Assembly (NCBI RefSeq): GCF_016651435.1
Contig: NZ_JAEPRJ010000001.1
Span: 1,984,001-2,048,000, forward strand
Length of the DNA stretch: 64,000 nt
Reading direction: 5' to 3'
DNA from: Catonella massiliensis
GTDB taxonomy: Bacteria > Bacillota > Clostridia > Lachnospirales > Lachnospiraceae
This document shows, piece after piece, positions 23,046 through 28,339 of the stretch (positions are counted from its first letter, which is position 1; every line of letters starts with the position of its first letter). The notes under the pieces were generated by a model that was given only the letters and a program-made list of their open reading frames with translations, did not search any database and was not told where the DNA came from. Both the position numbers and the translations under genes were made by a program.

Positions 23046-24590
23046 TTATTTTTTAATTAAAAGCGACTTTCCAGTCATTTCAGCAGGCTGTGGAAGCCCC
23101 ATAAGCTCAAGGAGTGTAGGGATGATGTCGCAGAGCTTGCCATCCTCTGCAAGACCATACTCTTCTCCCGCATTCACAAGGATGAAAGGCACAGGGTTGG
23201 TTGTGTGGGCAGTCCAAGGCTCTCCTGTCTCGTAGTCAATCATCTGCTCGGCATTTCCGTGGTCAGCGCAGATGAACATAGCACCGTCAACTTCTTTAAC
23301 AGCCTCTACCACTCTTCCTACGCAGGTATCAACTGCCTCTATAGCCTTCACCGCTGCTTCCATGACTCCTGTATGTCCAACCATATCAGGGTTTGCGAAG
23401 TTACAGATAATCGCGTCATACTTTCCACTCTTTATAGCATTTACAAGTCCGTCACATACCTCAAATATGCTCATTTCAGGCTGTAAGTCATAGGTTGCAA
23501 CCTTAGGTGACTTTACAAGGATTCTGTCTTCTCCGGGGAACGGCTCCTCTACGCCGCCATTAAAGAAGAAGGTAACGTGTGCATACTTCTCAGTCTCTGC
23601 GGTACGAAGCTGTGTTTTGCCAAGCTTTGAGAGATACTCCCCGAAGGTGTTCTTAACGTCTATCTTGTTGAAAGCAACTGTCTTGTTAAGCATATTTGAA
23701 TCATAGTCTGTAAAGCAGACAAACTTAGTCTTAATCCTCCCACCTCTTCTCTCAAACCCGTCAAAATCATCATTACAGAAGGCCTTTGATATCTCTCTTG
23801 CCCTGTCAGGACGGAAGTTGAAGAAGATGATGCTGTCATCATTTTTGATAGTAGCAACAGGTGCGCCGTCTCTCTCAATTACAGTAGGTACAACGAACTC
23901 ATCGGTTACATCACCGCCGTATGAGCTTTCTATGGCAGCCACAGGGTCTGTGGCTGTATTACCTTCACCGTATACCATAGCCTTATATGCAAGCTCCACT
24001 CTGTCCCAACGGTTATCCCTGTCCATAGCATAGTAGCGTCCCATTACGGTAGCCACCTTGCCTACGCCAAGCTCATTCATCTTAGCTACAGCATCTGCTA
24101 CGAAGTCACGGCCACTCTTAGGAGGTGTGTCCCTTCCGTCCAGGAAGCAGTGGAGATAAACCTTATCAAGGCCTTCCTTTTTAGCAAGCTCCAAAAGTCC
24201 GTACATATGAGTAATATGGCTGTGTACTCCACCATCAGAGAGAAGTCCCATCAAGTGAAGAGCGCTGTTTTTCTCCTTACAGTTTTTAACTGCTGATAGA
24301 AGTGCCTCATTCTTAAAGAAATCTCCGTCCTCTATCTCTTTTGTGATTCTGGTAAGCTCCTGATATATGATTCTTCCTGCACCCATATTCATATGTCCTA
24401 CCTCAGAGTTACCCATCTGTCCGTCAGGAAGACCTACAGCCAGGCCGCTTGCATATCCCTTTTTCCAAGGATAAGTCTTCATAATCGCATCTAAATTAGG
24501 CTTCTTCGCCTGTGCTATTGCATTATAGTCTTCTCTTTCATTAATTCCAAATCCATCCATTATTAAAAGTACTACCGGTCTTTTAGCCAT
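23046..24590 (-). CDS. gpmI: 2,3-bisphosphoglycerate-independent phosphoglycerate mutase
   Basis: Start set at ATG 24588-24590 (MAKRPVVLLIMDGFGINERE, 514 residues), which has AAAGGAGC 6 nt upstream; an ATG seven codons earlier lacks a site. The protein has the alkaline-phosphatase-type metal motif IMDGFG and the phosphoserine motif MGNSEVGHMNMGAGR. It also shows LLSDGGVHSH, HCFLDGRDTPPKSG, FNFRPDRAREI and the C-terminal metal motif ICADHGNAEQM. It interconverts 3- and 2-phosphoglycerate using two Mn ions. Length is normal and the frame intact. Confidence 0.97.
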   Translation of the reverse strand: MAKRPVVLLIMDGFGINEREDYNAIAQAKKPNLDAIMKTYPWKKGYASGLAVGLPDGQMGNSEVGHMNMGAGRIIYQELTRITKEIEDGDFFKNEALLSAVKNCKEKNSALHLMGLLSDGGVHSHITHMYGLLELAKKEGLDKVYLHCFLDGRDTPPKSGRDFVADAVAKMNELGVGKVATVMGRYYAMDRDNRWDRVELAYKAMVYGEGNTATDPVAAIESSYGGDVTDEFVVPTVIERDGAPVATIKNDDSIIFFNFRPDRAREISKAFCNDDFDGFERRGGRIKTKFVCFTDYDSNMLNKTVAFNKIDVKNTFGEYLSKLGKTQLRTAETEKYAHVTFFFNGGVEEPFPGEDRILVKSPKVATYDLQPEMSIFEVCDGLVNAIKSGKYDAIICNFANPDMVGHTGVMEAAVKAIEAVDTCVGRVVEAVKEVDGAMFICADHGNAEQMIDYETGEPWTAHTTNPVPFILVNAGEEYGLAEDGKLCDIIPTLLELMGLPQPAEMTGKSLLIKK

Positions 24591-24701
24591 TATTTTGCTC
24601 CTTTCAAGCATAAAACAAACATACCCCTTAGGGTTTTTAACTTGTGCGTTATTATACTATAAAATTATTTAAAACTCAAATGTAAAGATACAAGTGCCTA
24701 A

Positions 24702-24795
24702 TATTTTTGCGAGGGCCTTGCTAAGTGCGGCAGTTGCAGGCCTGTATCAATAGGTATCAAAACTCATTATGACTACATCATTATATACATAGGTA
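24702..24795 (+). repeat. Intergenic two-hairpin repeat, copy 1
   Basis: AGGGCCTTGC...GCAGGCCT hairpin followed by GTATCAATAGGTATCAAA and ACTACATCATTATATACAT. The same layout, with partly different stem bases that keep pairing, occurs at 28570-28663 on the other side of the MocR gene. Confidence 0.55.
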
Positions 24796-24928
24796 TACTA
24801 TGAAATGAGATTTTTGGCAAGTATTTTGATTCCCTCTTCTATCCTATCCTCACTTATATTCCCATAGCCTATCAATATGTAAGCCTCACCGCCTTCAGGT
24901 TTTTCCCCTATCCTGTGCTTTGATAGTC
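24780..24928. repeat. 149-bp direct repeat (left), long target duplication of IS1634-type element
   Basis: Identical to 26924-27072 except at 24900 (T instead of G). It holds the last 131 bp of the MocR reading frame as a disconnected fragment plus 18 bp beyond the stop. It directly abuts the IS left end. Confidence 0.93.
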
Positions 24929-25010
24929 GGGAGTTTGACAACCTAATCCGTTATGAGGTTCATCAAAGCCAGATATGGCTTATTTTTTTTGTCAAATCTT
25001 AAATTTATGC

Positions 25011-25039
25011 TTGCACGTTCCACTCCGATACGTTATAAT
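25011..25039 (+). promoter_or_regulatory. Promoter of the IS1634-type transposase
   Basis: TTGCAC, 17-bp spacer, TATAAT, 19 bp before the ATG; TTGGAGG ribosome site lies in between. Confidence 0.8.
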
Positions 25040-25058
25040 AGTATTGGAGGATAATACT

Positions 25059-26825
25059 ATGAGATTAGGATGGACTACCGGAAAATATTCAATTACCTAT
25101 CGTGCTGTTAAAACAGTTAGAATCAATGGGAAAAACAAAACTCAGATTGTTAAAACCTTCGGTTCAGAAAAACAAATCTGCGAGATGTATGGCGTGAAAG
25201 ATGCAAAAGCCTGGGCTAAAGAACAGGTGCGTATTATGAATGAAGTTGAAAAAGAAGATTCCGCAACATTTAATATTGAGCTCTGTGCCGCTAATGACCT
25301 TGTTAGTAATGAACAGCATAGGTTTAATGGCGGATATCTTTTCCTTCAGGATATTTATTATGAATTAGGCATGCATAAGATTTGCCGTGCAATCTCTGCG
25401 AGACACCCATTCGAGTACGACCTGAATGACGTACTTTCACGTCTTATATACAGCAGAATACTTTTCCCGTCATCAAAAAGGAATAGCTTTGAAGAGTCAA
25501 AGCGTTTTATTGAACAGCCCTCTTTTGAACTGCATGATGTTTACCGCTCATTATCAGTGATAGCTGAAGAGGCTGATTATATTCAGAGCCGCATTTTTAA
25601 AAACAGCACTGCAGTGCAAAAACGAAATACTCAAGTAATCTATTATGACTGTACAAATTTCTACTTTGAAATCGACAATGAAGAGGATGATAAGCAGTTT
25701 GGCAAAAGTAAGGAAAACCGCCCACTCCCTATAGTAGGAATGGGGCTGTTTATGGATAGCGATGGTATTCCTATATCCTTTTGCATTTATCCCGGAAACC
25801 GCAATGAACAGACCACTATGATTCCGCTTGAAAAGAAGATGCTTTCTGGATTTGATATGTCCAAGTTTGTTGTCTGTACAGATTCAGGACTGTCATCTGC
25901 AACAAACCGGGTATTTAATTCCTACAACAGCGAAAACGGCATGCGCGGGTATATAACAACACAGCCTATCAAAATACTTAAAGACTTCTTACAAGAGTGG
26001 TGTATGGCTGATGACGGATGGCTTCTCGATGGTGATAGAAGCGGCAAAAAATATAGAATATCAGAATTAGACAGTGAAAAGGATAGAGACAAGATTTTCT
26101 ACAGATCGCGTTGGATTAAAGAGGAAGGTATAGTCCATACAGACAGTGGCGACAGAAAACAAATAATCGAACAGAAGCTCATTGTTTCATACTCCTTAAA
26201 ATACCGTGATTTCCAGCGCCATGTACGTAGAGGACAGATTGAAAGAGCTGCGAAAATGATTGAAAAAGGACGTTCTTCGATAGAAAGAAAAAAACAAAAT
26301 GATCCTAAACGATTTATAAAAACCGACCATACAACAAAGTACGGTGAGATTGCAGATGTATCCATAAACAGCATAGACCAGTCATATATTGAAAATGAAG
26401 AAAAATATGATGGTTTCTACGCTGTATGCACCAACCTTAATGACAACATAGGTAGTATAGTCAGGGCAAACAAGCGACGTTGGGAGATTGAAGAATGCTT
26501 TAGAATAATGAAAACTGATTTTGAAGCACGTCCTGTATATTTAAACAGGAAAGACAGGATACTAGCCCATTTCATAACCTGTTTTATTTCACTTATTGTA
26601 TACAGGTATCTTGAAAAGAAACTTAATAATAAATATACCATAGACCAGATACTTCCTACCCTTCAGGAAATGGATTTCATAAAGTACGAGGGTAAAGGTT
26701 ATCAGCCCATTTACACCAGAACAGAACTCACAGATGCACTGCACGATGCATTTGGATTCTGTACATCTAAACAGATAGTTCCAATAAAAAAAATGAGGAA
26801 TATTTTTTCACAAACAAAAAAATAG
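25059..26825 (+). CDS. IS1634 family transposase
   Basis: Start set at ATG 25059 (MRLGWTTGKYSITYRAVKTV, 588 residues), with TTGGAGG 9 nt upstream. An ATG 28 codons earlier would lie upstream of the -35 box. The DDE core is visible: VIYYDCTNFYFEI (first D), FVVCTDSGLSSATN (second D) and RRWEIEECFRIMKTDFEARP (E). A large insertion lies between the second D and E, as in the IS4/IS1634 group. The enzyme cuts and joins DNA ends during transposition. IS1634-type elements are known for long, variable target duplications, which fits the 149-bp repeats here. Confidence 0.93.
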   Translation: MRLGWTTGKYSITYRAVKTVRINGKNKTQIVKTFGSEKQICEMYGVKDAKAWAKEQVRIMNEVEKEDSATFNIELCAANDLVSNEQHRFNGGYLFLQDIYYELGMHKICRAISARHPFEYDLNDVLSRLIYSRILFPSSKRNSFEESKRFIEQPSFELHDVYRSLSVIAEEADYIQSRIFKNSTAVQKRNTQVIYYDCTNFYFEIDNEEDDKQFGKSKENRPLPIVGMGLFMDSDGIPISFCIYPGNRNEQTTMIPLEKKMLSGFDMSKFVVCTDSGLSSATNRVFNSYNSENGMRGYITTQPIKILKDFLQEWCMADDGWLLDGDRSGKKYRISELDSEKDRDKIFYRSRWIKEEGIVHTDSGDRKQIIEQKLIVSYSLKYRDFQRHVRRGQIERAAKMIEKGRSSIERKKQNDPKRFIKTDHTTKYGEIADVSINSIDQSYIENEEKYDGFYAVCTNLNDNIGSIVRANKRRWEIEECFRIMKTDFEARPVYLNRKDRILAHFITCFISLIVYRYLEKKLNNKYTIDQILPTLQEMDFIKYEGKGYQPIYTRTELTDALHDAFGFCTSKQIVPIKKMRNIFSQTKK

Positions 26826-26856
26826 ATAGTGTAACGTGCATATGTAAATTTTCTAA

Positions 26857-26900
26857 AAGCCCTGTAACTCGCTTCTATAGCGAATTACAAGGCTTTTTTT
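26857..26900 (+). terminator. Terminator of the transposase gene
   Basis: AAGCCCTGTAACTCGC pairs with GCGAATTACAAGGCTT with two mismatches, followed by a T-run. It lies inside the IS, 32 bp after the stop. Confidence 0.85.
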
Positions 26901-26923
26901 CTTAAAAAGCTGTCAAAGACGGG

Positions 26924-27072
26924 ATTATATACATAGGTATACTATGAAATGAGATTTTTGGCAAGTATTTTGATTCCCTCTTCTATCCTATCCTCACTTA
27001 TATTCCCATAGCCTATCAATATGTAAGCCTCACCGCCTTCAGGGTTTTCCCCTATCCTGTGCTTTGATAGTC
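26924..27072. repeat. 149-bp direct repeat (right), target duplication
   Basis: Right copy of the target duplication. It contains the real 3' end of the MocR gene, so the insertion left that gene whole. Confidence 0.93.
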
Positions 27073-28339
27073 CTACAAGCTTTATCCCACTTTTTTCTCC
27101 TCTGCTTACAACTTCTTCTTCGGACATATCAAGCTTAAATTTAACCATAAGGTGCATACCCGCATTGCCGCCCATTATCTTTACCTTGTCGCCAAAGACT
27201 TTGAGCGAGGAAATCAGCTTATCATGTCTTGACTTATATATCTTTCTGGCTTTGTTGATATGCCTTTCATAATGCCCTCCAAGGATAAACTCCGTAAGCA
27301 CAGCCTGGTCAATCCTTGGTACCGTACAGGCTAGGAAGGCAAGCTTTTTCCTGTACACCTTAAGCAGTCCGTCAGGAAGCACCATGAAGCCTATCCTTAT
27401 GGCAGGGGCGATAGTCCTTGAAAATGTACCCAGATAAACCACCTTATTCTCCGTATCTATCGCCTTCAGAGGGGGGATAGGCAGTCCCTTGTATCTAAAC
27501 TCACTATCGTGGTCATCCTCTATTATATACCTGTCTTCTCCTGATGCCCATCCAAGGATTTCTTTCCTCCTCTTTATAGGCATTACAACCCCAGTTGGGA
27601 ACTGGTGCGAAGGAGTCAGATAGACCGCCTTTGCCTCTGAACGTTTAAGCTCTTCCACCTTAAGTCCGTTCTCATCAAGGTTTATAGGATAAACCTTCCT
27701 GTTTAATGATGAAAATATCCTATAAGCCTGCATGTAGGTAGGGTTTTCCATTGCTATTATGCTTTTCTCATCTATCAAATGCTCTAAAAGTTGCAAGAGA
27801 TAGCCCGTTCCTGCACCTATTATCATATTTTCAGGCTTCACGCTTAGTCCCCTGTAGCCAAAAAGATACTTAGCTATAGCCACTCTTAGCTTCATATCCC
27901 CCTGTCTCTCACCAAGGTTAAAGAGTTCCTCTCCCCTGTCACGCATACACTGTCTATAGAGTCTGTCCCACATCCTGTAAGGGAAGCTCTCCTTACACAG
28001 TGAAAAAGGTGAAAAATCATATTCATACTCTGGTTCAGGATTGACACTCTCATTTTTTATATCGGTAAATTCCTCTTTTTTTTCACTGTTTATCCTGTCT
28101 ATTTTATTCACATAATAACCGCTTTGAGGGCGGACTTCCACATACCCTTCAGCGTAGAGCTGTTCATAGGCAAGGGTAACTGTGTTCCTGCTTATCTGAA
28201 GGTTGGCCGCAAGCCCCCTCTCTGATGGAAGCTTCTCTCCCTCAGCCAGTTCCCCCTCAGTTATAAGCCCCCTAATCTTTAGGTAGAGCTGCTCATAAAG
28301 CGGCATTTTATCCTTAGATTTAAGTTCAACTGTAAGCAT
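26942..28339 (-). CDS. MocR-type GntR regulator with aminotransferase-like domain; PLP lysine replaced
   Basis: The 465-residue protein has a GntR winged-helix domain (1-75: PLYEQLYLKIRGLITEGELA, LPSERGLAANLQISRNTVTL) and a fold-I aminotransferase-like domain (from about 110), with YIIEDDHDSEFRY. MocR regulators use PLP bound to a lysine in a GTFSK motif. Here the motif reads GTFSRTIAPAIRIGFM, with R308 encoded by AGG at 27416-27418, so the usual Schiff-base lysine is missing. The frame is otherwise intact. An IS1634-type element inserted just past its end. It may regulate a neighbour, but no divergent target gene is obvious: the plus-strand ABC-F operon starts 460 bp away. Confidence 0.88.
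   Translation of the reverse strand: MLTVELKSKDKMPLYEQLYLKIRGLITEGELAEGEKLPSERGLAANLQISRNTVTLAYEQLYAEGYVEVRPQSGYYVNKIDRINSEKKEEFTDIKNESVNPEPEYEYDFSPFSLCKESFPYRMWDRLYRQCMRDRGEELFNLGERQGDMKLRVAIAKYLFGYRGLSVKPENMIIGAGTGYLLQLLEHLIDEKSIIAMENPTYMQAYRIFSSLNRKVYPINLDENGLKVEELKRSEAKAVYLTPSHQFPTGVVMPIKRRKEILGWASGEDRYIIEDDHDSEFRYKGLPIPPLKAIDTENKVVYLGTFSRTIAPAIRIGFMVLPDGLLKVYRKKLAFLACTVPRIDQAVLTEFILGGHYERHINKARKIYKSRHDKLISSLKVFGDKVKIMGGNAGMHLMVKFKLDMSEEEVVSRGEKSGIKLVGLSKHRIGENPEGGEAYILIGYGNISEDRIEEGIKILAKNLIS

Follow-up and report, generated by a model that had tools for sequence, protein, structure and literature searches.

Members of the IS1634 family are normally bordered by direct repeats of 5-6 bp, and for two of them, IS1634 and IS1549, repeats of 8-514 bp are on record (PMC2266710). 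These long and variable duplications were described in 1998-1999, and according to a 2008 family review no mechanistic model had been put forward for them (PMC2266710). The family table gives a length of 1,500-2,000 bp and the terminal pattern C-----YT (PMC2266710), and the elements ISPfe2 (PMC3281130) and ISGka5 (PMC8024623) each have a 6-bp repeat. The first-pass annotation of the window, i.e. the whole 64,000-nucleotide stretch of Catonella massiliensis DNA analysed here, described an IS1634-type element with a 149-bp duplication, a length that lies outside the usual 5-6 bp of the family and inside the range of IS1634 and IS1549. Its statement that IS1634 makes very long, variable duplications is borne out by the published 8-514 bp, a range shared with IS1549 (PMC2266710). 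To the same annotation the locus looked like a clear case outside Mycoplasma; a long repeat is indeed present here, but it is not the first, IS1549 of Mycobacterium being already known (PMC2266710).

The element in the window and its direct repeats

Sequence repeat analysis delineates an IS1634-family element of 1,995 bp between direct repeats of 149 nt (Table 1), which are 99% identical at a spacing of 2144 and match at 148/149 positions, leaving one mismatch. A repeat of this length at this identity is far beyond chance. The element and repeats are thus as first annotated, with coordinates that are right within a one-base ambiguity at the left IS end, where a C precedes GGGAG while another C ends the right repeat copy. 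Because a C stands at both junctions, the repeat is 148 or 149 bp. In a profile search the transposase scores 349.5 bits against the NCBIfam IS1634 model NF033559 (cut-off 100), confirming the family assignment, and 30 bits against Pfam DDE_Tnp_1. The length of 1,995 bp and the ends CGGGAGTT and CCCGTCTT, which follow the pattern C-----YT, agree with the family definition. Likewise, the end of the MocR gene lies within the duplication as had been claimed, the right copy containing the last 131 bp of the intact ORF.

Table 1. Coordinates of the insertion and of neighbouring features, as positions in the window
Feature	Position	Strand	Remarks
gpmI-like ORF, downstream	23046..24611	-	presumably phosphoglycerate mutase (gpmI-like), by N-terminal motif
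Direct repeat (probable target duplication), left copy	24780..24928	.	149 bp; 148 if last C belongs to IS
TATAAT hexamer, start of left copy	24780..24785	-	168 bp upstream of gpmI-like ORF
Left terminal sequence CGGGAGTTTGACA	24928..24940	+	
IS1634-family insertion sequence	24929..26923	+	first base 24928 if terminal C counted; same bounds in 98% identical second copy
Small hairpin and T-run inside left end, reading into IS	24966..24990	+	terminator-like, pattern match only
Transposase ORF	25059..26825	+	588 aa; in-frame ATG at 24975 extends to 616 aa
Palindrome near right end	26855..26897	.	predicted hairpin of -29 kcal/mol as minus strand (z -6.2); passes forward-terminator criteria, not reverse
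Right terminal sequence, read inward, CCCGTCTTTGACA	26911..26923	-	
Direct repeat (probable target duplication), right copy	26924..27072	.	includes last 131 bp (26942-27072) of PdxR/MocR-type ORF
-10-like hexamer TATAAT	26924..26929	-	touches IS right end; matches junction consensus
Intact PdxR-like MocR-type regulator ORF	26942..28339	-	3' end within duplication; 533.6 bits, cut-off 320

Repeats and empty sites of other copies

The first-pass annotation had named two results that would speak against the duplication, short repeats at other copies and an IS-free strain with both 149-bp copies, and neither came to light. The repeats at other copies in the same genome are not short. A second copy of the element there, 98% identical from end to end, carries a perfect repeat of 136-137 bp that differs from the one in the window (counting the terminal C as part of the IS shortens it to 135 bp). 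A more distantly related IS1634-family element, the third in this genome, is likewise bordered by a perfect repeat, of 148-149 bp. Seven near-identical copies in a relative, apparently Lachnoanaerobaculum gingivalis (G130), show repeats of 118 (with 3 mismatches), 160, 249, 121, 36 and 228 bp, the remaining one being without a repeat. Empty sites were obtained for two insertions of related elements by comparing Lachnoanaerobaculum gingivalis KCOM 2030 with Lachnoanaerobaculum sp. OBRC5-5. The 112-bp repeat of the first insertion (L126) is a single copy in OBRC5-5, with colinear flanks; the 53-bp repeat of the second (L128) is a single copy in L. gingivalis, where the matches of its left and right flank share exactly 53 bp and the right flank is colinear for 198 bp. 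Since the perfect repeats in C. massiliensis differ between copies and the empty sites hold a single copy, the long repeats would represent target duplications. The comparison of near-identical copies with different long repeats, together with the two empty sites of related elements, thus supports the original reading of the 149-bp repeat as a probable target-site duplication. For the window copy itself, no comparable neighbourhood with an empty site was found in four same-genus genomes: only one of these (G003) has the MocR gene of the window over its full length, and the ORF that follows there begins, as judged by eye, unlike the gpmI-like ORF of the window.

Two arrangements were observed beside these comparisons. 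The second copy in C. massiliensis (L002/L020, at about 1,683,400-1,688,300) sits between arrays of tandem repeats of approximately 102 bp, as read from seed spacing. At the end of contig C6 of G130, the right repeat copy of L074 appears to abut the left end of another IS, and this may be either a repeat-IS-repeat-IS tandem or an assembly break.

The wider survey drew loci from the genome of C. massiliensis, its relatives, a genome-contig scan and samples at the family, order, class and phylum level. The resulting junction catalogue holds 210 entries: 121 are repeat-bearing, and the other 89 are right ends that have no repeat. Manual removal of 31 entries (truncated repeat, boundary not at the IS end, or other lineages) and a filter on terminal type and flank length, which took out 17 more, left 162 junctions. 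Elements sharing the right-end type of the window element were treated as one group, a definition that does not refer to a branch of a tree. The 85 complete repeats of this group span 15-853 bp with a median of 108 bp; 83/85 fall at 29-325 bp, 77/85 are perfect, and the 15-bp repeat is that of L329. Helical phasing of the repeat lengths was sought and not found (p=0.43). The footprint of RNA polymerase as a reason for the usual 29-bp minimum is only suggestive, as a 15-bp and perhaps a 7-8-bp case exist.

Where both ends of a copy are present with 1 kb or more of flank on either side, a long repeat is seen in 70 copies and absent from 22. The no-repeat copy L035 (at the place of L200) may have a repeat of 7-8 bp. 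For another, L138, a sister species matches the left flank at one place, and the sequence there is not continued by the right flank; this mapping points to a rearrangement.

Promoter-like sequences at the right junction

A first set of insertions, from which 53/59 were retained (six were dropped by hand, owing to a repeat cut by the locus end or a wrong match), yielded a right-junction logo of ATTATA, a 17-bp spacer and a TGTCAA-like hexamer, which on the other strand reads TTGACA-N17-TATAAT. Across the 162 junctions, 121 match ATTATA beside the right end in at least 5/6 positions. The signal is retained in the 112 junctions that were unused in pattern discovery, where 83/112 have at least 5/6 of the -10 (consensus A94 T77 T84 A74 T88 A87). 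At a spacer of 16-18 bp, a -35 (TGTCAA, reverse complement TTGACA) of at least 4/6 occurs in 47% of the unused junctions compared with 17% at control offsets (p=1.7e-10), and one of at least 5/6 in 24% compared with 0.7%. When the two sets were combined and each of the 106 IS types was represented by one insertion, the -35 was found in 47% vs 15%, with a largest p of 6e-8 over 300 draws. Of 121 insertions at ATTATA-like sites of 5/6 or better, the first set included, 29% have a -35 of at least 5/6. Control ATTATA-like sites from the same loci have it in 3.1% of 2,539 intergenic cases, 4.9% of 715 intergenic cases just upstream of an ORF and 1.7% of 9,582 cases within ORFs.

The signal is one-sided, with a -10 at the right junction in 66/85 insertions and at the left junction in 4/85. 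It is also incomplete: the -10 is below 5/6 in 41/162 junctions, a -35 of 4/6 is missing in more than half of the junctions, and 12/22 of the no-repeat copies have the -10. At the left junction C is preferred (51/82, against a background of 19%). The C that begins the IS is at the same time the next target base in 51/82, and C is favoured two bases before the left junction (36/82). Outside the 162 junctions, a copy on the megaplasmid of Carnobacterium maltaromaticum LMA28 shows an exact AATATA, 17 bp and TGTCAA; its repeat is split into two perfect segments, one of 175 bp and one of 144 bp. Eighteen junctions with other end types (TTTTGCA, TTTTACA, TTCGGAA and alike) have a -35 of at least 4/6 within four offsets in 12 cases, an uncontrolled count, and the -10 is sometimes shifted by one base there; L291 and L312 are counted both among these 18 and among the 162.

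The window copy is matched at the -10 and not at the -35, whereas the group as a whole matches both. Its right junction has a perfect TATAAT, with a -35 that by hand count reaches 2/6 at best. For the gpmI-like ORF, positions 24679-24651, which are closer to it, offer a better candidate promoter. The poor -10 of the second copy in the same genome is TATTTC. The window copy belongs to the promoter-anchored group by its ends and its anchor, yet it is a weak example of a promoter.

Virtual empty sites could be built for 70/85 insertions with enough flank. Anchors are intergenic in 59/70 and inside predicted ORFs in 11/70. Of the 59 intergenic anchors, 57 have an ORF of at least 90 aa within 400 bp on the downstream side of the promoter, and this ORF points in the right direction at 54/57 sites (p=4e-13). 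The remaining two have one at 420 bp in the right direction (L325) and one at 575 bp in the wrong direction (L329). The distance from anchor to ORF is 20-90 bp in 30 of the 55 listed. Ten downstream ORFs were scanned and one matches glmM, a gene that is often essential. In 25/70 insertions the left cut is within an ORF that does not contain the anchor, and the right copy therefore carries that ORF whole; both cuts fall in predicted ORFs in 7/70, and the anchor alone in 4/70. In most cases, then, promoter and upstream gene both remain intact after the duplication. There are exceptions, since 11/70 anchors are in predicted ORFs, seven of them with the left cut in an ORF as well. The initial suggestion of insertion without harm accordingly stands as the usual outcome in the group, but not as a general one.

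A tree of 62 transposases, chosen mostly for having a repeat (L375, a fourth short-repeat row, represents a wrong ORF and is disregarded), places most of the promoter-anchored elements on a branch with a support of 92/79. This is below the mark of the program, and we therefore speak of a group and not of a clade. Named members of the branch are mostly Bacillota. On a plasmid of Ligilactobacillus salivarius (L406), the annotation places an IS1634-family element beside an erm(C) gene. Three short-repeat rows of the tree group together and adjoin three rows of a second set of elements, group B. For the elements of G1320, G1380 and G1346, the best repeats are of 5-10 bp, found with 14 bp of slack that allows for chance matches.

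Group B, likewise of the IS1634 family (L345-L363; 14 insertions of three terminal types), has perfect repeats of 59-1,362 bp. No -10 consensus is present at its 14 right junctions, the left junction is T- or pyrimidine-rich in most, and the left cut is inside a predicted ORF in 11/14. Hence a long repeat needs no promoter, as group B makes its repeats of this length without one, and the long stagger is accordingly a property of more transposases than the promoter-anchored ones, with promoter anchoring as an added target choice. Terminator T-runs as an explanation of the group B left junctions were dropped: by eye, a hairpin directly precedes the T-rich end in a minority of the 14 (clearest in L356 and L362), and 11/14 cuts are in ORFs. 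A copy from Mycoplasmopsis gallopavonis (L408) is also of the IS1634 family, with a 44-bp repeat, group-B-like ends and a T-rich left junction. Its record has 13 matching places and could show which mode the Mycoplasma elements follow.

Mode of insertion and known counterparts

Judged from sequence, we consider it highly probable that the repeat arose by target-site duplication and that the IS1634-family element behind it is one of a group using sigma-A-type promoters as insertion sites. The junction statistics of the group show the right IS end attached to the -10 box on its downstream edge, and the left end joined upstream, 29-325 bp away in 83/85 and with a weak preference for C. In DDE chemistry, the base adjoining each IS end tells which strand was attacked; by this rule the template strand, between -7 and -6, would be the one that receives the right end, and the opposite strand, further upstream, the one that receives the left end. 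The template stretch between -7 and -6 is single-stranded in open complexes. The two strand transfers probably take place one after the other rather than on one tight target complex, and in the first of them something beyond DNA sequence, RNA polymerase or the melted promoter, may act as the guide; we infer polymerase to be the guide of the transposase. Filling of the long stagger would then give two copies of the segment between the cuts, the left one keeping the promoter with its gene and the right one pointing a promoter into the element. In its fullest form the proposal is that a widespread IS group lands on the RNA polymerase-promoter complex, where the right end is inserted into the template strand of the melted -10 and the left end takes free DNA upstream of the polymerase, so that the promoter and, as a rule, the end of the upstream gene are rebuilt. 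We give this fuller form an even chance of being correct.

Among 65 distinct right ends, a terminator is predicted in the forward direction in 32, in reverse in 28 and in both in 21, compared with 1 forward and 6 reverse in internal control windows (n=130). At the left ends, 11/65 have a terminator reading in and none has one reading out. Where terminators act in both directions, as predicted at 21/65 right ends, they could protect the element from the inward-pointing copy of the promoter.

The same junctions might be produced by a transposase that merely prefers ATTATA by its right end, with selection purging harmful insertions and leaving promoter sites where the duplication does little damage. 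Congruent with this, the -35 signal is far weaker than that of the -10, a good -35 is missing from both the window copy and its sister copy, and the anchors are mostly intergenic (59/70). Harmlessness, however, needs no -35 at exactly 17 bp, and a -35 of at least 5/6 is found in 29% of the insertions vs 4.9% of intergenic ATTATA-like sites upstream of ORFs. Moreover, 11/14 left cuts of group B are inside ORFs, so genic insertions are not purged as a rule, and we regard such a preference combined with selection as rather unlikely. It is also conceivable that the transposase itself reads -10 and -35 DNA in the manner of a sigma factor, with no RNA polymerase involved. The signal is sequence-defined; two hexamers at a 17-bp spacing with the looseness typical of promoters would nevertheless be the behaviour of a holoenzyme, and a sigma-like transposase appears distinctly unlikely to us.

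Other explanations concern the repeat rather than the anchor. Two ordinary insertions with short duplications, placed close together on sister chromosomes, could undergo homologous recombination and give repeats of any length with no odd chemistry, and L138, a no-repeat copy whose flanks do not map together in a sister species, indicates that rearrangements occur. Such recombination predicts the same target signature at both junctions, whereas the -10 is seen in 66/85 at the right and in 4/85 at the left, and it calls for two insertions per locus every time; its probability is very low. That the 149-bp repeat is older than the IS, which landed in or recombined into it, would accommodate the one mismatch between the window copies. 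This origin is refuted for the two related-element insertions with single-copy empty sites, while copies of one element have different repeats abutting the IS ends, making a pre-existing repeat exceedingly improbable.

For insertion at promoters as a target-site duplication, the closest counterparts are IS1634 of Mycoplasma mycoides and IS1549 of Mycobacterium smegmatis, which resemble the present group in their IS1634-family transposase and long variable direct repeats; the descriptions of the two in the accessible part of the family review mention no target motif or promoter anchor (PMC2266710). ISPfe2 and ISGka5 have a transposase of the same family and similar ends and, unlike the group, short duplications. 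Promoter anchoring of the IS1634 family, which is absent from the first-pass annotation, was not found in the literature covered, namely titles and the starts of abstracts. The anchor thus appears to be new, the long repeats of the family being already known, and its novelty is not certain because the primary IS1634 and IS1549 reports are outside that scope. The anchor provides a concrete, testable rule, with one end fixed on the -10 box and the other free, and suggests how elements may sit beside genes without breaking them. If true, it would go some way towards the model still lacking for the long, variable repeats that IS1634-family elements make, and the polymerase as guide would represent a bacterial mobile element aimed at transcription initiation.

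Non-LTR retrotransposons combine one specific first joining with a loosely placed second one, and thereby make variable duplications. The group described here differs from them in that no reverse transcription is involved and the counted IS ends are intact. Integration guided to promoters is shared with the yeast retrotransposons Ty1, Ty3 and Tf1 (PMC5371812), of which the group would, if the proposal holds, be a bacterial counterpart. Those are, however, retroelement integrases working with eukaryotic factors, whereas here the integrating element would be a bacterial one of the DDE type, whose junction at the -10 is strand-specific and whose duplication includes the promoter.
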